DNA of 64,000 nucleotides from Marivita hallyeonensis (GTDB lineage: Bacteria > Pseudomonadota > Alphaproteobacteria > Rhodobacterales > Rhodobacteraceae), in contig NZ_FQXC01000005.1 in assembly GCF_900129875.1 (NCBI RefSeq), positions 62,001 through 126,000 of the forward strand, written 5' to 3'. Below are positions 6,548 through 16,446 of the stretch, in pieces (within the stretch, counting starts at the first letter, position 1; every line of letters begins with the position of its first letter). The notes below the pieces were generated by a model that ran no database searches, was not told the origin of the DNA, and worked only from the letters and a program-made list of their open reading frames with translations. Made by a program: the position numbers and the translations under genes.

Positions 6548-7828
6548 TTAGTTGTAGAAGTAATCCACCAGGAACATCGGGATCGCCGGGATGTAGGTGC
6601 ACATCAGGAGCACTGTCAGAAGCACCGCGATGAAGTACACGTTCACCTTGGTCACGTCCCAGATGTTTGCGCGTGCCACGGCGCAGGCGGTGATCAACAC
6701 GCTGGCCACAGGCGGCGTTTGCTGGCCGATGGCAAGATTGAGCGTCACGACGAGGCCGAAATGGATCGGGTTGATGCCCACGGCGTCGATCAGCGGGATC
6801 ACGATCGGTACCACGAGGATGATCGCGGCGGCGGAGTGGAGGAAGAAGCCGATGATCAGGAAGAAGAAGTTCAGGATCAGCAGCACGACCCACTTGTTGT
6901 CGGTGATGCTCAGGATGGCTCCGGCAAGTTCCTGAGGGTATTGCGCCCGCGTCAGGAAACCGCCCATGACAACCGAAGCCGCAACCAGCAGCATGACCAC
7001 CGCCGTCTGCATGCCGCCGTCCAGCATGGAGCGCTGCAGGTGCTTGAGATCGACCTGGCGGTACCAGAGGCTGATCGCGATGGCGGCCAGAACGGCCAGA
7101 CCGGCGGCCTCGGTTGCGGTCACGTACCCGCCGAAGATACCGCCAAGGATGATGACCGGCAGAGCAAAGGTCGGCAGGGCGTCGACGAAGGCTTCCCAAA
7201 GCTTGCGGCCCGAAAACGCCTCTTCCCGTGGCAGGTCGTATTTGACGGCGAAGTAATAGGCGACGCCCATCAGGCCAGCGGCGCCCATGAGGCCCGGGAT
7301 GACACCGGCCACAAACAATTGCTCAACCGACACGTTGGCCGAGGTCGCGTAAAGGATCATCGGGATCGACGGCGGGATGATGATGGCGAGTGAGGCGGAC
7401 GAGGATGTCACGGCGGCCGACAAGGCCCCGGAGTAGCCGCGTTTCTTCATTTGCGGGATCATCACCGATCCCATCGCCGCCACATCTGCCACGGCAGAAC
7501 CGGAAATCTCGGCAAAGAAGAGCGACACTCCGATGTTCACATGGGCGAGACCGCCGCGGATAAACCCGATCAGGGCTGCCACGAAGTTGATCAGACGGTC
7601 GGTGATGCCGCCTGCGTTCATGATGGCCCCGGCAAGGACGAACATGGGGATCGCGATGAGTGAGAACTTGGTCGCGCCGCCATACATGTCCAGAGCCACA
7701 TTCACCAGGGATCCGGCGCCTTCGAGCACCAGCAATCCGAGAATGGCTGACACGGCCAGGGCAACGCCGATTGGCACGTTCAGACAGATCATCGCGACCA
7801 TGGCGATGAAAATACCCAGCATCAGCAT
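6548..7828 (-). CDS. TRAP transporter large permease, DctM type
   Basis: The 426-residue protein is highly hydrophobic with about twelve transmembrane segments and DctM-type stretches such as IPMFVLAGAIMNAGGITDRL and FFAEISGSAVADVAAMGSVMIPQM. It is the sodium-coupled translocating subunit of a tripartite carboxylate or hydroxyacid importer. Its start overlaps the stop of the small permease gene by one base (7828), so the two are translated together. The solute cannot be read from this subunit; the neighbouring dehydrogenase and aminotransferase suggest an organic acid. Confidence 0.93.
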   Translation of the reverse strand: MLMLGIFIAMVAMICLNVPIGVALAVSAILGLLVLEGAGSLVNVALDMYGGATKFSLIAIPMFVLAGAIMNAGGITDRLINFVAALIGFIRGGLAHVNIGVSLFFAEISGSAVADVAAMGSVMIPQMKKRGYSGALSAAVTSSSASLAIIIPPSIPMILYATSANVSVEQLFVAGVIPGLMGAAGLMGVAYYFAVKYDLPREEAFSGRKLWEAFVDALPTFALPVIILGGIFGGYVTATEAAGLAVLAAIAISLWYRQVDLKHLQRSMLDGGMQTAVVMLLVAASVVMGGFLTRAQYPQELAGAILSITDNKWVVLLILNFFFLIIGFFLHSAAAIILVVPIVIPLIDAVGINPIHFGLVVTLNLAIGQQTPPVASVLITACAVARANIWDVTKVNVYFIAVLLTVLLMCTYIPAIPMFLVDYFYN

Positions 7829-8421
7829 CAGGCGTTCCCCGCTTTCTTCATCTCGGTTTCAACTTCTTCTTCGATTTCGGCGTGTTCGAGCGACACACCG
7901 CCCGCTGTCTTCCGCCAGTAATCGGGCAGGCTCAGGGCCTGACAGATCACGAACAGAACGGCGCCGATGGGGATCACGGACTGCGTGAAGCTGATCGGTA
8001 CCCAGGTGAGCGACGTCAGCGACATGCCGCCCAGGATTGTCATCACCGTGTATCCGGCCCAGGCCAGCAGGATGAAGAAACCTGCCGTGATGGCTTCGGC
8101 AAGCATCACCGCCCACATGCGCGCGGGCATTGGAATGGACAGGAGAACGGAGTCGAAGCCGATATGCCGCCGGCGCAGCGCTGCGAGCGCGGAGCCGTAG
8201 TACGTGATCCAGGCCAGCATGATCGCGGCCACCTCGTCGTACCAGGCGAGGCTTGATCCCAGTAGTCGGTAGATGACCGCGACAACCACGATGGCTGTCA
8301 GGATCACCATGAGGAAGATCACGAAATATTCGAGAACGACCTCAAAGAATTTGCGCAGTGAATTGAGCATAGGTGGCCCCCGCCGGGCACTTGGCCCGGT
8401 GATTTCAGAAGAAGCAGTCAT
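7828..8421 (-). CDS. TRAP transporter small permease, DctQ type
   Basis: This 197-residue protein has the four membrane helices of DctQ subunits (hydrophobic stretches near residues 30-55, 65-85, 105-130 and 145-165) and the LAWYDEVAAIMLAWITYYGSALALRR-like loop that marks the family. The start is uncertain: the ATG at 8421 adds a polar 17-residue leader, while the ATG at 8370 gives MLNSLRKFFEVV and a family-typical N-terminus. It lies between the binding protein and the large permease genes, the standard order P-Q-M. Confidence 0.88.
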   Translation of the reverse strand: MTASSEITGPSARRGPPMLNSLRKFFEVVLEYFVIFLMVILTAIVVVAVIYRLLGSSLAWYDEVAAIMLAWITYYGSALAALRRRHIGFDSVLLSIPMPARMWAVMLAEAITAGFFILLAWAGYTVMTILGGMSLTSLTWVPISFTQSVIPIGAVLFVICQALSLPDYWRKTAGGVSLEHAEIEEEVETEMKKAGNA

Positions 8422-8477
8422 GGTTGGTTATCCCAAAGCGGGCAGGGGGCCGTGATTGGCCCCCTGCGCAGTTCAGG

Positions 8478-9458
8478 TCAGGACCCCGATGCGAGGCTCT
8501 GAATGCTCTCGATCAGTTCTGCACCGCCTTCGACGGTGGTTGCGAACTCTTCGTAGATCGGTGCCGAGGCTTCGATAAAGGCCGCATTGTCGGCTTCATT
8601 GACCGCAACACCGGCATCACGGATCACTTGCAGAAGCTCTTCTTCCAGCTTGGCCGCGTGATCGTAGACGAAGTCCTGTGTCTCGGACCCGCAGGCCTCG
8701 AGATCGGCGCGGACATCTTCCGGCAGACGCTGCCAGCGGCTTTCCGCGACCAGTACATACGCGGGGGTGTAGACGTGCCCGGTGATCGACAGGTATTCCT
8801 GCACTTCCTGGAACTTGGCCGACGCGATCTGGGCGTAGGGGTTTTCCTGCCCGTCGATAACGTTGGTCTGAAGCGCGGTGAACACCTCAGAGAACGACAT
8901 CGGCGTCGGGTTCGCGCCATACAGCTGGAACATCTTCACGCGCCATTCACCGTTGGGCGTCCGCAGTTTCACGCCCTGAAGGTCTTCGGGCGTGTTGATC
9001 GGGCGCACGTTGTTGGTGATGTGGCGGAAGCCGTTTTCGAAATAGCCGATGATCCGGTAGCCTTCGCCCATCGCGGCTTCCTGGAACGTGTCGCCCAGTT
9101 CAGCCTGGATCGCGCGCATGTGGTCGCGATCTTGCACGATGTAAGGCATTTCGAACACGCCGAATTCCGGTGCTACCGACGACATGACGGATGATGGCAG
9201 CGAGAAATCGACCTGACCGAGCTTCAGCTTCTGCAGAAGCTCGCGGTCATTGCCAAGCTGGCTCGACCCGAAGGTCTGCACTTCGGCGCGGTCACCCAGT
9301 TTGCCGTTGGCGCATTCCGCGAAGGCGTTGACGGATGCCTCGAACAGCGATCCGGGGTTGCCGACATGGCCGAAGCGCAGTGTCAGGTCCGCAGCGCTTG
9401 CCGCAAGTGGCATCGCGATCGCTGCCGCACTGGCGAGTATGGTTGCTTTGAGTTTCAT
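8478..9458 (-). CDS. TRAP transporter solute-binding protein, DctP family
   Basis: This 326-residue periplasmic protein starts with a Sec signal peptide (MKLKATILASAAAIAMPLAASA) and shows the DctP fold: LTLRFGHVGNPGSLF, then GVKLRTPNGEWRVKMFQLYGANPTPMSFSEVFTALQTNVIDGQENP. The latter contains the conserved substrate-binding arginine (KLRTPN) that pairs with a carboxylate. A strong ribosome site, AGGGAGGA, precedes the ATG. It follows the aminotransferase gene by 32 bases, so the transporter is made with that enzyme. The ligand is inferred to be a 2-hydroxy- or 2-oxo acid from context only. Confidence 0.93.
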   Translation of the reverse strand: MKLKATILASAAAIAMPLAASAADLTLRFGHVGNPGSLFEASVNAFAECANGKLGDRAEVQTFGSSQLGNDRELLQKLKLGQVDFSLPSSVMSSVAPEFGVFEMPYIVQDRDHMRAIQAELGDTFQEAAMGEGYRIIGYFENGFRHITNNVRPINTPEDLQGVKLRTPNGEWRVKMFQLYGANPTPMSFSEVFTALQTNVIDGQENPYAQIASAKFQEVQEYLSITGHVYTPAYVLVAESRWQRLPEDVRADLEACGSETQDFVYDHAAKLEEELLQVIRDAGVAVNEADNAAFIEASAPIYEEFATTVEGGAELIESIQSLASGS

Positions 9459-9490: not shown

Positions 9491-10678
9491 CTATTCAGCG
9501 GCGAACCGCTCTTCCGTTGTATGCTTGAGATGCTCCATTGCCGCCTGCGCGCCGCCCGCATTGTGCGGGATGCCGGCTTTGGCGAGGCCCATCTCCACGC
9601 CGGACAACGTGGCCATCAGCATCAGATCGTTGAAATCCCCCAAGTGCCCGATCCGGAACACCTTGTCCGCGACCTTGGACAGGCCGTTGCCAAGGGAGAT
9701 ATCGTAATGTTTGAGTGTCGTCGCGCGGAACGCATCGGCCGAATGGCCGTGCGGAACCAGAACGGCGGTCAGGACGCCTGATTCCTCGCCCTGCCGTGCG
9801 CAGAGCACTTCGAGGCCCCAAGCGCGCACAGCCGCACGGGTCGCAGCACCATGACGGGCGTGACGTGCGAAGACGTTGTCCAGCCCTTCTTCGTGCAGCA
9901 TGTCGATCGCTTCGTTCAGGCCATAAAGCAGATTTGTGCCCGGTGTGTACGGGAAGTACCCTGTAGCATTCGGGCCGACCATATCATGCCAATCCCAATA
10001 GCTGCGCGGCATGGTTGTCGACTTGGCGTATTCCAGCGCCTTGTCGCTTACAGCGTTGAAACTAAGCCCCGGTGGCAGCATCAGACCCTTTTGAGAACCG
10101 GAGACACACACGTCGACGCCCCATTCGTCGAAGCGGAAGTCGACGGAGGCGAGGCCGGATATCGAATCGACCATCAAGAGCGCCGGGTGACCTGCCGCGT
10201 CGATAGCCTTGCGCACGTCGGCGATGGGTGAAACGGACCCCGTCGACGTTTCGTTGTGAACGACGCAGACTGCCTTGATTTCGTGATTGGTGTCTTCGCG
10301 TAGACGGGCCTCGATGCGGTCAGGTTCGGCCCCGCCGCGCCAGTCGCCTTCTAGAAACTCCGGCTCAAGCCCGATCTTGCGTGCCATCTTGTTCCACAGG
10401 GTCGCGAAATGCCCGGTTTCGAACATCAGAACCTTGTCTCCGGGAGACATCGTGTTCACCAGCGCCGCTTCCCACGCGCCCGTTCCGGACGAGGGGAAGA
10501 TGAAGACGTGCTGTTTGGTCTTGAAGATGGTCTTCATTCCCTCCAGCGCCTTCTGGCCTACCGCGGCGAAATCGGGTCCGCGATGGTCGATCGTTTGCTG
10601 GCCAATGGCCTTGAGAATGCGATCAGGAACCGCACTGGGCCCCGGAATTTGCAAGAAATGTCTGCCAGCCTGGCGCAT
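9491..10678 (-). CDS. Class V aminotransferase, serine-glyoxylate aminotransferase-like
   Basis: The 395-residue protein is a PLP enzyme of the alanine/serine-glyoxylate aminotransferase family. Seen are IPGPSAVPDRIL and IDHRGPDF at the N-terminus, FPSSGTGAWEAAL, VVHNETSTG, LLMVDSISGLAS with the PLP-contacting aspartate, and SGSQKGLMLPPGL with the Schiff-base lysine at residue 197. The ATG at 10678 has GGGAGGA nine bases upstream and is preferred over a GTG at 10696. It is the first gene of the leftward operon, directly beside the palindrome at 10738. It probably transaminates a 2-oxo acid such as glyoxylate. It is also similar to BhcA of the beta-hydroxyaspartate cycle, but bhcB, bhcC and bhcD are not nearby. 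Confidence 0.85.
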   Translation of the reverse strand: MRQAGRHFLQIPGPSAVPDRILKAIGQQTIDHRGPDFAAVGQKALEGMKTIFKTKQHVFIFPSSGTGAWEAALVNTMSPGDKVLMFETGHFATLWNKMARKIGLEPEFLEGDWRGGAEPDRIEARLREDTNHEIKAVCVVHNETSTGSVSPIADVRKAIDAAGHPALLMVDSISGLASVDFRFDEWGVDVCVSGSQKGLMLPPGLSFNAVSDKALEYAKSTTMPRSYWDWHDMVGPNATGYFPYTPGTNLLYGLNEAIDMLHEEGLDNVFARHARHGAATRAAVRAWGLEVLCARQGEESGVLTAVLVPHGHSADAFRATTLKHYDISLGNGLSKVADKVFRIGHLGDFNDLMLMATLSGVEMGLAKAGIPHNAGGAQAAMEHLKHTTEERFAAE

Positions 10679-10725: not shown

Positions 10726-10754
10726 TTGATAAAACGTAATTATGAATTCATAAT
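10726..10754 (+). promoter_or_regulatory. Predicted sigma-70 promoter for the FAD/Fe-S dehydrogenase operon
   Basis: TTGATA at 10726-10731 and CATAAT at 10749-10754 are separated by exactly 17 bases; each matches consensus in five of six positions. Transcription would start near 10761. The -10 element lies inside the 18-bp palindrome at 10738-10755, so a bound regulator would block it. Because the palindrome is symmetric, a second CATAAT faces the aminotransferase gene on the other strand, with a weaker -35 (TTTAGT) 17 bases away. Confidence 0.6.
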
Positions 10755-10755
10755 T
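10738..10755. promoter_or_regulatory. Perfect 18-bp palindrome, probable GntR operator
   Basis: AATTATGAATTCATAATT reads identically on both strands. It sits between the divergent aminotransferase and dehydrogenase genes, overlapping the predicted -10 elements in both directions. GntR regulators of the FadR/FCD group bind short AT-rich palindromes as dimers, and such a gene lies at 13702-14385 in the same operon. The assignment to that regulator is inference. Confidence 0.65.
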
Positions 10756-10818
10756 CAGTCAACTAAAAAATTTGGCGTCGAAAACAGGATGCCGACAGGG
10801 GAGGATAATCAAAGGCTC

Positions 10819-13692
10819 ATGCGTGAGAATGCCCGTCTTTCCAGCCGTTTGACCGCTGCCATCTCTGGCGATGTGATGACAGATCCCGCGTCGCGCGGAC
10901 GCTACGCGACAGACGCATCGATCTACCAAATGATTCCCGAAGCGGTGGTTGTTCCGCGTTCGGTCGAGGATGTCGAAGCGGCGATGGACATCGCGCGGGA
11001 AGAGGAAACGCCCGTCCTCCCGCGCGGGGGTGGCACCTCGCAATGCGGACAGACCGTGAACCGAGCGGTCGTGCTGGACAACACGCGCCATCTGAACCGT
11101 ATTCTTGACATCGACACCGAGAAACTGACCGCGCGGGTCGAGCCGGGTTTGGTGCTGGACGAGTTGAATCGTGCGCTCAAGCCGCATGGGTTGTGGTTCC
11201 CGGTCGATCCGTCAACAGCGTCGCGATGCACGTTGGGTGGGATGGCGGCGAACAACTCTTCGGGTGGCAAATCGCTACGCTACGGAATCATGCGCGACAA
11301 TGTCCGCGCGATATCGGCCATTTTGCCGGATGGTACGAAGGCCCGGTTCAACGGTGCGAACCCCGAGCCGGGCGTCTACGCCGATCTGGTCAACGACATG
11401 CGTGCGCTTGGGCGGCGCGAGGCCGACGAGATCGATGCGCGCTTTCCGAAGGTTCAGCGCCGGGTCGGGGGCTACAACATCGACGCGCTGACCGGTTACG
11501 AAGTGAATATGGCGCATCTTCTGGTGGGGTCCGAAGGCACGCTTGCCTATTTCACCGAGCTGGAGCTGAGCCTTGCGCATCTGCCGGGCGAAAAGGTGAC
11601 CGGCGTTTGCCATTTCCCGACTTTTTACGCCGCGATGGATGCCGCGCAGCATCTGGTGACGCTGAACCCGCAAGCCGTCGAACTGATCGACGATACGATG
11701 ATCGCCCTGGGTCGGGATATTCCGCTGTTCCGCAAAACCATCGAGGCGTTTGTCGAAGGCGATCCCGCCGCGTTGCTGCTGGTCGAGTTTGCGGAAGGCA
11801 GTGCCGAAGGAAACGCGGCCAAGCTGGCCGAGCTTTCCCAGATGATGGGTGACCTTGGATTTGCCTTCACCGGGACGGGAAAGACGTGGGGCGGCGTGGT
11901 GCCTGTCACCGACAACGGCCTGCAGGGCGCCATCGCCGAATACCGGAAATCCGGCTTGAACGTGATGATGTCGATGAAAGACGCGGGCAAACCGATTTCC
12001 TTTGTCGAAGACTGCGCCGTCGCGCTGCCCGATCTGGCCGAATACACGCAGGGCGTCACCGACGTTTTCACGAAATACGGATCAAAAGGCACATGGTACG
12101 CGCATGCGTCGGTCGGGTGTCTGCATGTGCGCCCGATCCTGAACATGCGCCAAGACAAGGACGTCAAAACCATGCGCGCCATGGCGGACGAGATTTTCGA
12201 TCTCGTGAAGCACTACAAAGGCTCGCATTCTGGCGAACACGGCGACGGGATCGTGCGGTCCGAATTCCACGAAAAGATGTTCGGGCCTCGGATCGTTTCG
12301 GCGTTCGAGGAGGTCAAGGCGCGGTTCGACCCCAAAGGCCTCATGAACCCGGGCAAGATTGTCCATGCACCCGCGATGGATGATCGCCGGGTGTTTCGCT
12401 ACGGACCGAATTACGAGGTGCCAGAATTCGAAACTGCGCTGGACTGGTCTGCCTGGCCGGGTGCTGCCGGCGGTTTTCAGGGCGCGGTTGAAATGTGCAA
12501 CAACAACGGCGCCTGCCGGAAGCTGAAGGGAGGCGTGATGTGTCCGTCCTTCCGCGCGACCCGTAATGAGCGGGACGCCACACGTGGACGGGCGAACACC
12601 CTGCGCTTTGCGATCAGCGGGCAGATGCCGGGTGGCCTGACCTCCGACGCAATGGCCGACACGATGAAGTACTGTGTGTCCTGCAAGGCCTGCCGCCGGG
12701 AATGCCCGACCGGCGTCGACATGGCGCGGATGAAGATCGAAGTGCTGGCAGCGCGGCGGAAGAAGACCGGCCTCACACTGGCAGAAAAGCTGGTGGGCTA
12801 CCTGCCCCGCTATGCACCCAAAGCGGCGAAGTTCGCGTGGCTGATGAACCTGCGAAACAAGATCGGGCCGGTGCGTCGTATGGCCGAGGGTCTGACCGGC
12901 GTGTCGCACCGCCGTGACCTGCCGGTCTGGTCGTCCAATCCGTTCCGGGATGACGAGGCGCAGGATGCAGACCCGGACGTCCTGCTCTTTGCCGACGTGT
13001 TCAACCGCTACTTCGAGCCGGAGAACTTGCGCTCTGCCGTCCGCGTCCTTCGCGCTGCCGGCTTGCGCGTGGCGGTCGCACGGGATGGGTCTGGCACCGC
13101 ACTTGATTGCGGGCGCACCTTGCTGGCCGTCGGTTGTGTCGAGGAGGCCCGGGCCGAGGCGCAGCGCGTCATCGACGCCACCAAGGATGCCATCGCAAAG
13201 GGCATTCCGGTCGTCGGGCTGGAACCGTCCTCGATCCTCACCTTCCGCGATGAATTCCTCGCCCTTTGCCCGGGTCCGGACGCGGAGGCCTTGGCGGGCG
13301 CGACACATACGTTCGAGGAGTTCCTGGCCAAACGGTCCGACCTGCGAATGAAGCCGCTGGGCCGGCCAATCTATGTTCACGGTCACTGCCACCAGAAGGC
13401 GCACGATGCGGTGACGCCGATGCTGGATCTGCTGAAACGCATCCCGGAGGCGGAAGTGCACATGATAGAAAGCAGTTGTTGTGGGATGGCTGGCGCCTTT
13501 GGCTATGCCCCCGACACGATTGACGTGTCGTTGAAGATGGCAAATCTGGACCTCTTCCCCGCTTTGGAGGCGGCACCTACGAACGCTTTTATCGTGGCGG
13601 ACGGCACGTCCTGTCGCCACCAGATCGCAGATGGCACACCGCGCCGCGCAATGCACGTGGCGCGCTTGCTGGATCAGGCCCTTGATGGATAG
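10819..13692 (+). CDS. FAD and Fe-S two-domain D-2-hydroxyacid dehydrogenase (YdiJ/GlcD-GlcF-like fusion)
   Basis: This 957-residue protein joins a GlcD-like flavin oxidase to a GlcF-like Fe-S part. The N-terminal FAD-binding (PCMH) domain shows VLPRGGGTSQCGQTV and LGGMAANNSSGGKSLRYG. The oxidase C-terminal domain ends with HSGEHGDGIVRSEF. Then come CNNNGACRK, a 4Fe-4S motif CVSCKACRRECPTGVDM, and two cysteine-rich CCG-type regions (YVHGHCHQKAHD and SSCCGMAGAFGY). Enzymes of this type oxidise D-lactate, D-2-hydroxyglutarate or glycolate and pass electrons to the membrane. The ATG at 10819 gives the family N-terminus; an ATG at 10789 is possible and has a poorer ribosome site. It is the first gene of the rightward operon. 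Confidence 0.87.
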   Translation: MRENARLSSRLTAAISGDVMTDPASRGRYATDASIYQMIPEAVVVPRSVEDVEAAMDIAREEETPVLPRGGGTSQCGQTVNRAVVLDNTRHLNRILDIDTEKLTARVEPGLVLDELNRALKPHGLWFPVDPSTASRCTLGGMAANNSSGGKSLRYGIMRDNVRAISAILPDGTKARFNGANPEPGVYADLVNDMRALGRREADEIDARFPKVQRRVGGYNIDALTGYEVNMAHLLVGSEGTLAYFTELELSLAHLPGEKVTGVCHFPTFYAAMDAAQHLVTLNPQAVELIDDTMIALGRDIPLFRKTIEAFVEGDPAALLLVEFAEGSAEGNAAKLAELSQMMGDLGFAFTGTGKTWGGVVPVTDNGLQGAIAEYRKSGLNVMMSMKDAGKPISFVEDCAVALPDLAEYTQGVTDVFTKYGSKGTWYAHASVGCLHVRPILNMRQDKDVKTMRAMADEIFDLVKHYKGSHSGEHGDGIVRSEFHEKMFGPRIVSAFEEVKARFDPKGLMNPGKIVHAPAMDDRRVFRYGPNYEVPEFETALDWSAWPGAAGGFQGAVEMCNNNGACRKLKGGVMCPSFRATRNERDATRGRANTLRFAISGQMPGGLTSDAMADTMKYCVSCKACRRECPTGVDMARMKIEVLAARRKKTGLTLAEKLVGYLPRYAPKAAKFAWLMNLRNKIGPVRRMAEGLTGVSHRRDLPVWSSNPFRDDEAQDADPDVLLFADVFNRYFEPENLRSAVRVLRAAGLRVAVARDGSGTALDCGRTLLAVGCVEEARAEAQRVIDATKDAIAKGIPVVGLEPSSILTFRDEFLALCPGPDAEALAGATHTFEEFLAKRSDLRMKPLGRPIYVHGHCHQKAHDAVTPMLDLLKRIPEAEVHMIESSCCGMAGAFGYAPDTIDVSLKMANLDLFPALEAAPTNAFIVADGTSCRHQIADGTPRRAMHVARLLDQALDG

Positions 13693-13701
13693 GATGCGGA
13701 T

Positions 13702-14385
13702 ATGAACCTGACTGAAAGCATCAAACGCCCGACGCTGCACGAAGAACTTGTAGAACGGTTGCGCAACCTCGTCGTCGAAGACGCGTTGAAGCCGGGCGAG
13801 AAAGTGCCTGAAAAGGACCTGTGCGAATCTTTCGGAGTGTCGCGGACGCCGCTGCGCGAAGCGTTGAAGGTGCTGGCGTCAGAGGGGCTGGTGGTGCTGC
13901 AGGCAAACCGTGGCGCACGCGTGGCCGAGGTGACGCGTGAAGAACTTGAAAACACGTTCCCCGTCATCGCGATGCTGGAACAGCTTGCCGGTGAGCTTGC
14001 GTGCCGAAACCTGTCGGATGCGGGCATCGCCCACATCGAAAAGCGCCATGATGCGATGGTCAAAGCCTTCATCTCGCGAGACCGGAAATCGTATTTTCAG
14101 GCCAATCAGGACATTCACAACGCCCTGATCGAAGGTGCGCAGAACGAAATCCTTGAATCCCATCACCGCATGCTCGCCGCCCGTGTTCGTCGCGCGCGGT
14201 TCATGGTGAACCTGTCAGAAGAACGCTGGGCGCAGGCGATCCAGGAACACGAGCAGATGATGGAAAAGCTGCGGGCACGGGATGCCGAAGGGTTGGGTCA
14301 GCTCATGAAGACCCACATGATGAACAAATACGCCGCGCATATCAAAGCCATGGCCGAGACGTCGGATGAGGTCGAGCAGCACTGA
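13702..14385 (+). CDS. GntR family regulator with FCD ligand-binding domain
   Basis: The 227-residue protein has a winged helix-turn-helix in residues 10-75 (ESFGVSRTPLREALKVLASEGLV, typical of GntR/FadR) and an all-helical FCD domain after residue 85, with ENTFPVIAMLEQLAGELA and the metal- and ligand-binding region YFQANQDIHNALIEGAQNEIL plus later histidines. FCD regulators commonly sense carboxylic acids. It starts nine bases after the dehydrogenase gene and is therefore co-transcribed, consistent with autoregulation from the palindrome at 10738. The sensed ligand is likely the TRAP substrate or a product, which is inference. Confidence 0.9.
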   Translation: MNLTESIKRPTLHEELVERLRNLVVEDALKPGEKVPEKDLCESFGVSRTPLREALKVLASEGLVVLQANRGARVAEVTREELENTFPVIAMLEQLAGELACRNLSDAGIAHIEKRHDAMVKAFISRDRKSYFQANQDIHNALIEGAQNEILESHHRMLAARVRRARFMVNLSEERWAQAIQEHEQMMEKLRARDAEGLGQLMKTHMMNKYAAHIKAMAETSDEVEQH

Positions 14386-14470: not shown

Positions 14471-15247
14471 ATGACCGAGGACCTGATATCCGAAAAACGG
14501 GGTCACACGCTCTGGGTGACGTTCAACCGACCTGAGGCGCGAAACGCGATCACCTTCGGCATGTACGAAGCGCTCGCTGAATTGTGCGCATCGGTGCCGA
14601 CCGATGGATCCGTGCGTGCGATGGTCATCATGGGCGCGGGCGGAAAAGCGTTTGCCGCTGGCACCGACATGACCCAGTTCCGCGCCTTCGAGACAGAACA
14701 GGATGCGCTGGATTACGAAGACGAGATCACGCGCGTTCTGACAGCGGTCGATCAGTGCCCGGTTCCCACCGTGGCGGCGATGCACGGCGCCTGCACAGGC
14801 GGTGGCGCGTCCATCGCGGCGGCCTGCGATATCCGGATCGCCAGTGCGCAGCTCAAGTTCGGCTTTCCCATTGCGCGGACGCTGGGCAATTGCCTGAACG
14901 CCGGGAACCTCGCACGGCTGAGCGAGCTTATGGGCGCGGGCCGCGTCCGTGAGATGATCTTTACCGCACGCCTCATGGGGGCGGATGAGGCTTTGGCGTG
15001 TGGCCTGATCTCTGAAGTGCTGCCTGACGAGGCCGCACTTCTGGACCGCGCCGATGTCCTGGCACAGCACCTTGCTGGGATGGCGCCGCTGACACTTCGC
15101 GCAACCAAGGAAGCCATGCGTCGCAACCGCGCCGCGTTGGCGGTCGAGGACAATGACCTGATTGCCCTGTGCTACATGAGCAACGACTTCAAGCACGGGC
15201 TCGAAGCGTTCCTCGCCAAGCAAAAGCCGGAATGGAGCGGGACATGA
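14471..15247 (+). CDS. Enoyl-CoA hydratase/isomerase family protein
   Basis: At 258 residues this is a normal crotonase-fold protein. It has VTFNRPEARNAITFGMYEAL at the start, the oxyanion-hole stretch AGGKAFAAGTDMTQF near residue 60, and VAAMHGACTGGGASIAAACDIRIAS near residue 105. The usual catalytic glutamate positions are not both obvious, so hydration is not certain and isomerase, lyase or thioesterase activity is possible. An AGGGGAGGTGA-type ribosome site precedes the ATG. Its stop overlaps the start of the CoA-transferase gene, so the two enzymes are made together and probably act on the same CoA ester. Confidence 0.86.
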   Translation: MTEDLISEKRGHTLWVTFNRPEARNAITFGMYEALAELCASVPTDGSVRAMVIMGAGGKAFAAGTDMTQFRAFETEQDALDYEDEITRVLTAVDQCPVPTVAAMHGACTGGGASIAAACDIRIASAQLKFGFPIARTLGNCLNAGNLARLSELMGAGRVREMIFTARLMGADEALACGLISEVLPDEAALLDRADVLAQHLAGMAPLTLRATKEAMRRNRAALAVEDNDLIALCYMSNDFKHGLEAFLAKQKPEWSGT

Positions 15248-16446
15248 GCGGTCACGGTCCCCTCAGGGGAATGAAAGTCATCGAATTGGCCCATATCATG
15301 GCTGGTCCCGCCTGCGGCATGATGCTGGCCGATATGGGCGCAGATGTGATCAAGGTCGAAAAACCGGACGGTGACGACAGCCGCCGCTTTCTGCCGCCCG
15401 AAATCAACGGTGAAAGCGCCGCCTATATGATGATGAACCGCAACAAGCGCGGTATTTCGTTGAACCTGAAGGACCCGGACGCGATCGAGGTCTTGCGCAC
15501 CCTGCTGGATAGCGCCGACGTGGTGGTTGAGAACTACCGGCACGACACGATGCAGAAGCTCGGTCTTGGATACGAGACGCTGCGCCAGAGCAATCCGAAA
15601 CTCGTCTATTGTGCCATTTCCGGGTTTGGCCGTACCGGACCTTATGCGGAGCGTGGTGGGTTTGACCTGATTGCGCAGGGCATGTCTGGCCTCATGTCGA
15701 TCACCGGGGAAGGCCCCGGTCGCCCGCCGGTGAAACCGGGAGCTCCGATCTCTGACATTACGGCAGGGTTTCTTGCGGCGATGGGGTGCATCGCGGCGTA
15801 TTCGCACGCGCAAAAGACCGGAGAAGGCCAGATGGTCGATACGTCGCTCTTCGAGGCCGGGATATCCCTTACCTACTGGCAATCCGCGATTGCCTTCGCG
15901 ACCGGCGAAGCCCCAGGCGCACTTGGGTCGGCCCACCCTTTGAACGCACCCTACCAATCATTCCGCACACGCGATGGCTGGATCAATATCGGCGCAGCGA
16001 ACCAACGCAACTGGCTGCGTCTGCTCGACGTCATCGACGCGCCCGAGCTTGAAAGCGATGCCCGTTTCGCCACCAATCGGGATCGCATGACGAACCTTGC
16101 CGCGCTGGTTCCGCTGCTCGAAGACCACCTTAGGACGCGCGACACCGACGACTGGTTGGACCGTATGGAGGCTGCAGGCCTGCCCGCCGGACCCGTCATG
16201 GATATCTGCGAGATGCATCAGGATCCGCAAGCCCACGCGAGGGACATGATCGTCGAGACGCAGCACCCGAAAGCAGGAACGGTGAAGGCCATCGGCCTGC
16301 CGGTGAAATTCAGCGAAACCCCCGGCGCGGTGACCCGCCCGGCCCCCGTACTGGGCGAGCACGGCCCGGAGATCCTTTCCGAGTACGGCTACTCGCCGGA
16401 TCACATTGATGCGCTTCGCCGACAGGGGGCTTTGATCGTAGCATGA
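15244..16446 (+). CDS. Class III (CaiB/BaiF) CoA-transferase
   Basis: This 400-residue protein has the family signature from its start: LRGMKVIELAHIMAGPACGMMLADMGADVIKVEKPDGDD, then NRNKRGISLNLKDP and VVENYRHDTMQKLGLGYE, which carries the region of the catalytic aspartate. Class III enzymes move CoA between carboxylic acids through a mixed anhydride. The ATG at 15244 overlaps the hydratase stop as ATGA, which decides the start against longer in-frame versions. With the upstream hydratase it suggests CoA activation and hydration or dehydration of a short organic acid made or imported by this locus; the acid is unknown. Confidence 0.9.
   Translation: MSGHGPLRGMKVIELAHIMAGPACGMMLADMGADVIKVEKPDGDDSRRFLPPEINGESAAYMMMNRNKRGISLNLKDPDAIEVLRTLLDSADVVVENYRHDTMQKLGLGYETLRQSNPKLVYCAISGFGRTGPYAERGGFDLIAQGMSGLMSITGEGPGRPPVKPGAPISDITAGFLAAMGCIAAYSHAQKTGEGQMVDTSLFEAGISLTYWQSAIAFATGEAPGALGSAHPLNAPYQSFRTRDGWINIGAANQRNWLRLLDVIDAPELESDARFATNRDRMTNLAALVPLLEDHLRTRDTDDWLDRMEAAGLPAGPVMDICEMHQDPQAHARDMIVETQHPKAGTVKAIGLPVKFSETPGAVTRPAPVLGEHGPEILSEYGYSPDHIDALRRQGALIVA

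Follow-up and report, generated by a model that had tools for sequence, protein, structure and literature searches.

A perfect 18-bp palindrome, AATTATGAATTCATAATT, lies about mid-way in the 140-bp gap between the starts of two divergent genes of Marivita hallyeonensis, encoding an aminotransferase and a dehydrogenase, and is placed over two overlapping promoters. We propose that the GntR/FCD protein encoded from position 13702 (the 13702 protein) uses this palindrome as its operator, that one bound dimer would block transcription in both directions, and that a metabolite of the pathway would release it. The position and conservation of the site, its tie to the regulator gene and the VanR-type architecture of the modelled regulator are observed, and they make this reading quite likely. 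That the locus is a new instance of a known arrangement, an ordinary kind of genetic switch, is well supported. A catabolic locus that recurs in many genera gains a defined candidate operator and the prediction of a single-site regulon. A candidate GntR operator outside the usual GT..AC signature is also documented, together with candidate specificity residues, and the general picture of GntR regulation is unchanged.

Table 1 Features of the divergent locus, in positions of the window (the whole 64,000-nt stretch of DNA analysed here).
Feature	Positions	Strand	Details
DctP-DctQ-DctM TRAP transporter genes	6548-9458	-	leftward operon
Class V aminotransferase gene (serine-glyoxylate/BhcA type)	9491-10678	-	first leftward gene; start ATG 10678 by ribosome-binding site and relatives
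Rightward promoter, TTGATA-N17-CATAAT	10726-10754	+	-35 at 10726-10731, -10 at 10749-10754; 10/12
Leftward promoter	10733-10762	-	conserved TTGACT -35 at 10762-10757, 18-nt spacer, weak -10 TACGTT at 10738-10733
Candidate operator, perfect 18-bp palindrome	10738-10755	.	10-bp core ATGAATTCAT at 10742-10751
FAD/4Fe-4S 2-hydroxyacid dehydrogenase gene (YdiJ/GlcD-like)	10819-13692	+	first rightward gene; start ATG 10819 by ribosome-binding site and relatives
GntR/FCD regulator gene, predicted VanR type	13702-14385	+	Pfam GntR and FCD; candidate operator binder
Enoyl-CoA hydratase-family gene and CaiB-type CoA-transferase gene	14471-16446	+	downstream of the regulator gene, same strand

Organization of the locus

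The genes of the two arms are listed in Table 1; the leftward set also includes a GlcG/HbpS-like protein. For the dehydrogenase, an alternative TTG start at 10726 was rejected in favour of the downstream ATG, on the ribosome-binding site and comparison with relatives. The dehydrogenase scores 494 bits, where the YdiJ cut-off is 1350, and the NCBIfam, Pfam and PDB matches of the locus proteins do not fix one substrate. For the solute-binding protein, the best relatives in the PDB are 4nq8 and 4p9k/4pak, which we take to be pantoate/erythronate binders, a lead that is not used in the argument. The two arms probably serve one pathway, because the hydratase and CoA-transferase genes are found on either arm in different genera. 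Among L068-L116, these two genes lie 3′ of the regulator gene in close relatives of the window, whereas most of the other loci have them as the last genes of the TRAP arm. In one relative (G007; L041/L091), an in-frame TAA occurs once within the reading-frame stretch that gave the dehydrogenase match.

Promoters and palindrome

A sequence-only reading of the window had described the rightward promoter as close to consensus, and our scoring agrees. TTGATA-N17-CATAAT matches 10 of 12 letters and is the better of two promoter-like matches between positions 9500 and 12000, where shuffled sequences give 0.6. The same reading had placed a CATAAT box on each strand. The rightward box stands, with its -35 element at N17, whereas the leftward CATAAT (10743-10738) is without a matching -35: only TTAGTT (2/6) lies at the right distance, and the conserved TTGACT is 13 nt away. 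A leftward promoter built on that box was rejected. The leftward promoter assigned here uses TTGACT, and the palindrome fills its 18-nt spacer; its -10 element, TACGTT, matches consensus at only 3 of 6 positions.

Both -35 elements are conserved. The 26 loci whose sites belong to the TGAATTCA type have an almost invariant core, accompanied by two further conserved elements, the rightward -35 TTG at -21 from the palindrome centre (T in 25, T in 22 and G in 22 loci) and the leftward -35, seen as GTCAA at +11 (TTGAC on the other strand; 23, 23, 24, 23 and 26 loci by column). Beyond the palindrome, the TTG and the GTCAA, these loci show little conservation. In L098, L099, L101, L104 and L105, GTCAA is found at +18 to +27 from the centre, not at +11, and the promoter-operator geometry differs.

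The palindrome is present at the divergent promoter as first described, but the rarity implied for it does not hold: the 64-kb window contains one perfect 18-bp palindrome, and its dinucleotide shuffles (30 made) contain 0.83 on average. Rarity was rejected as evidence and, since such a palindrome is not above chance, the weight of the argument rests on position and conservation. In the 4.19-Mb genome, AATTATGAATTCATAATT is the sole copy within three mismatches; the looser pattern ATTNTGNATNCANAAT, with one mismatch allowed, adds two imperfect places. On the motif derived later from the orthologous loci, the site is the sole 12/12 score in the window. Where the GntR-type consensus places GT and AC on either side of a centre of 2-3 nt, the window site reads GA-AT-TC. 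Other GntR family members with non-consensus sites are named in PMC4494728, and literature searches, including one on four motif strings that gave 0 records, turned up no paper on this motif in a GntR setting.

Conservation of the site with the regulator

Of 394 family genomes, 45 contain a match to the dehydrogenase at E <= 1e-250. We read 48 orthologous loci, leaving out L037 and L038 as non-orthologs (31% dehydrogenases of the same genus) and G224, where the gene is partial at a contig start. Within the genus, close dehydrogenase orthologs occur in 5 of 17 genomes, and the site lies directly before the gene in all five; among the other 12 genomes the pattern matches in one (G263), at another location. 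The block GTAATTATGAATTCATAATTCAGTCAA recurs with few changes across the family, at loci with dehydrogenases 62 to 92% identical to that of the window.

A site was counted when at least 10 of the 12 motif letters were found no more than 250 bp before a gene. Such a site precedes the dehydrogenase gene in 34 of the 38 family loci with an adjacent ortholog of the regulator gene, against 1 of 10 without. In four of the family loci with the regulator (L069, L104, L105 and L109), a good site was not found. Among loci from named genomes (the best 80 of 580 relatives), the complete ones have the site before the dehydrogenase in 12 of the 28 that carry the regulator and in 1 of the 39 that do not, and the incomplete ones in 0 of 2 and 2 of 10, respectively. 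When the gaps next to genes are scanned, 58 of 68 regulator-bearing loci reach 10/12; this count and the residue table leave out L231, where the regulator is on the other strand.

The site also relocates. In 17 named loci (again from the best 80 of 580) the regulator gene lies upstream of the dehydrogenase gene, and in 11 of these the motif is found no more than 250 bp before the regulator. Comparison of the two gaps in these 17 loci gives the better score before the regulator, in the aminotransferase gap, in 13, including all nine with betaproteobacterial record titles; two Bradyrhizobium loci (L178, L182) score better before the dehydrogenase, L179 ties, and a single gap was scanned in L169. 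The site usually follows the regulator when gene order changes. The expectation that the palindrome would recur at orthologous loci is borne out: it is kept beside the ortholog of the 13702 gene across the family, and the two also occur together elsewhere in the Alphaproteobacteria and in records whose titles point to Beta- or Gammaproteobacteria.

Two loci without an adjacent regulator gene, L083 and L224, retain a weaker site, and the genome of L083 (G136) gives no match to the regulator at 1e-20. GTCAA is kept in the regulator-less L072 and L083, where the palindrome is absent or degraded, so that promoter and operator parts can be distinguished. In L083 and L224, GTCAA is in place and the symmetry of the palindrome is lost, as if the operator had decayed after loss of the regulator.

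Sites elsewhere in the family genomes

The pattern ATTNTGAATTCANNAT occurs in 41 of the 394 family genomes, and a reversed control pattern in 1; 22 of its 43 sites fall in the dehydrogenase gap. There are 21 relaxed sites off the locus, of which 16 were examined, plus G192. Most look like chance, with 14 of the 16 inside open frames of at least 100 codons. Sites read on both strands number 19 in the 394 genomes, 16 at this locus and three elsewhere (G027, G192 and G222), and all three of the latter adjoin a gene for another GntR/FCD protein and one for an acyl-CoA synthetase, as read from translations. The palindrome class is not unique to the 13702-type regulator, and this locus dominates among strict sites.

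A related palindrome, ATTCTGAATTCAGAAT, is found beside another FCD regulator gene in L136/L161 (G027), L160 (G192) and L145/L162 (G222), and in one-sided form, also by another FCD regulator gene, in L163 (G336:C14). The recognition helix of these regulators is a different one; in the three that were read it is SRQPIQQ.

The regulator and its operator bases

The 13702 protein matches the Pfam GntR and FCD families at 65.9 bits (cut-off 27) and 82.4 bits (cut-off 24.3). Its structural model (pLDDT 93.4) has six effector-domain helices (residues 79-103, 106-124, 128-145, 149-169, 173-191 and 195-226), which indicates a VanR-type FCD protein without the extra helix of the FadR group. The best structural match is AlkR/VanR 9ISW (Z 24.5, rmsd 1.9, 207 aligned; 24% identity), and further best matches are a Brucella regulator, PmiR and McbR. 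The model aligns with the Atu1419-DNA complex at Z 19.4 and rmsd 4.7 (213 aligned; ~20% identity). The residues of a predicted Asn and three His metal site (N135, H139, H183 and H205) are conserved in 67 of 67 orthologs, as are the equivalents of DNA-contact residues, E37, S47, R48, T49 and R52.

PMC7797058 gives the zinc ligands of Atu1419 as Asn137, His141, His192 and His214, and describes Arg45 reading G3 and Thr46 reading A5 on ATGTATACAT; for base 4, it lists a phosphate contact alone. Compared with ATGTATACAT, ATGAATTCAT keeps G3 and A5 and is changed at base 4. The window site is thus off the GT..AC signature, yet keeps the bases read in the nearest VanR-type DNA complex.

Base 4 of the operator is A, C or T among the orthologs, and mixed sites also occur. 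At all ten sites of the TGTATACA type (TT), which carry the GT..AC signature, residue 56 of the regulator is R or Q, and it is K at 54 of 55 non-TT sites; the sole exception, L235, has a tied TT candidate site. The tree and residue counts leave out L169 (regulator 34% identical, helix not aligned), and the covariation test also leaves out two loci scoring below 9/12. On the effector-domain tree each trait changes four times and, because only two independent pairs fall on supported branches, we claim no phylogenetic significance for the covariation. As a pattern among aligned sequences, it supports, but does not prove, the pairing of regulator and site. Residue 38, aligned with FadR Arg35, also tracks base 4, more loosely and with more exceptions. 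Tentatively, and with somewhat less than even confidence, the orthologous loci of Alpha-, Beta- and Gammaproteobacteria may form a single regulon. Its operator would drift at one position of the half-site, base 4, which may be A, C or T, with sites of mixed type such as TGAATACA standing between them, and regulator residues 38 and 56 would change in step. If true, this would provide a natural series for reading how VanR-type regulators shift DNA specificity outside the GT..AC rule.

Proposed switch and alternatives

In the proposed switch, a dimer of the 13702 protein would bind the two half-sites of the core and cover both the rightward -10 element, which serves the dehydrogenase-regulator operon, and the spacer of the opposing promoter, which faces the aminotransferase and TRAP genes. 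Through this overlap, one dimer on 10738-10755 could block RNA polymerase both ways. A pathway metabolite, probably a carboxylate reaching the FCD metal site, would release the dimer. The earlier suggestion of a single operator for both operons draws support from conservation of the site with the regulator, and it fits both the anatomy of the gap and the single-site divergons described in PMC4494728; the rarity of the palindrome and the leftward CATAAT box no longer count towards it.

The 13702 protein could instead bind here and control one arm only, or repress the rightward promoter and act as an activator at the weak leftward one. Such asymmetry would suit a rightward promoter near consensus and a poor leftward -10. 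We regard it as unlikely, given that the site lies inside both promoters, that the hydratase and CoA-transferase genes sit on one arm or the other by genus, making the arms look like one pathway, and that the site occupies the aminotransferase gap in rearranged loci. A different possibility is that the palindrome is an A+T-rich promoter element only, two overlapping -10 sequences of incidental symmetry read by RNA polymerase alone. Conserved -35 elements do flank the site, palindromes of this length are expected at 0.83 per window, and GTCAA at +11 persists in L072 and L083. The palindrome nevertheless tracks the regulator (34/38 against 1/10), moves with it in rearranged loci, and preserves its symmetry with different letters in the TGTATACA types, which makes a promoter element alone very unlikely.

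The operator might also belong to a regulator encoded elsewhere, for example another FCD protein; in G027, G192 and G222, a site of the same palindrome class adjoins an FCD gene of another kind. However, the ortholog of the 13702 protein is favoured by its co-occurrence with the site, by their shared relocation and by the pairing of residue and site, and the source genome contains a single match to this protein at 1e-40; we consider an outside regulator highly improbable.

Relation to known systems

Two of the closest known systems are VanR-type regulators. Atu1419 of Agrobacterium fabrum (PMC7797058) shares the six helices, the Asn and three His metal site and the same contact residues, and its 10-bp palindrome ATGTATACAT lies over a -10 element or between -35 and -10 at a divergent gene pair. 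It differs in having two sites 190 bp apart, where the Marivita locus has one site with base 4 of the core changed. AlkR of Pseudomonas aeruginosa, the closest structure, likewise has an operator over -10 regions; according to PMC12042122, that operator is ATTGTCAGACAAT and the genes controlled are alkane genes.

DhdR of Achromobacter denitrificans is a GntR/FCD protein whose gene adjoins a D-2-hydroxyacid dehydrogenase gene that it represses (PMC8651671). The same work describes an operator, GTTATCAGATAAC, that overlaps a -35 element, a dehydrogenase of another kind, and genes in the same direction, not divergent. The Marivita locus falls outside the DhdR type, defined by operator GTTATCAGATAAC and a D-2-hydroxyglutarate dehydrogenase partner: its palindrome differs, and its dehydrogenase has the 494-bit score against the YdiJ cut-off given above.

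In the FadR-subfamily divergons of PMC4494728, both operons are served by a single palindrome placed about half-way along the gap, under a published consensus of TKGT..ACMA; the Marivita site reads TGA-AT-TCA. It has the layout of these single-site divergons: the gene starts lie 68.5 and 72.5 bp from the palindrome centre, and the genome has one site within three mismatches.
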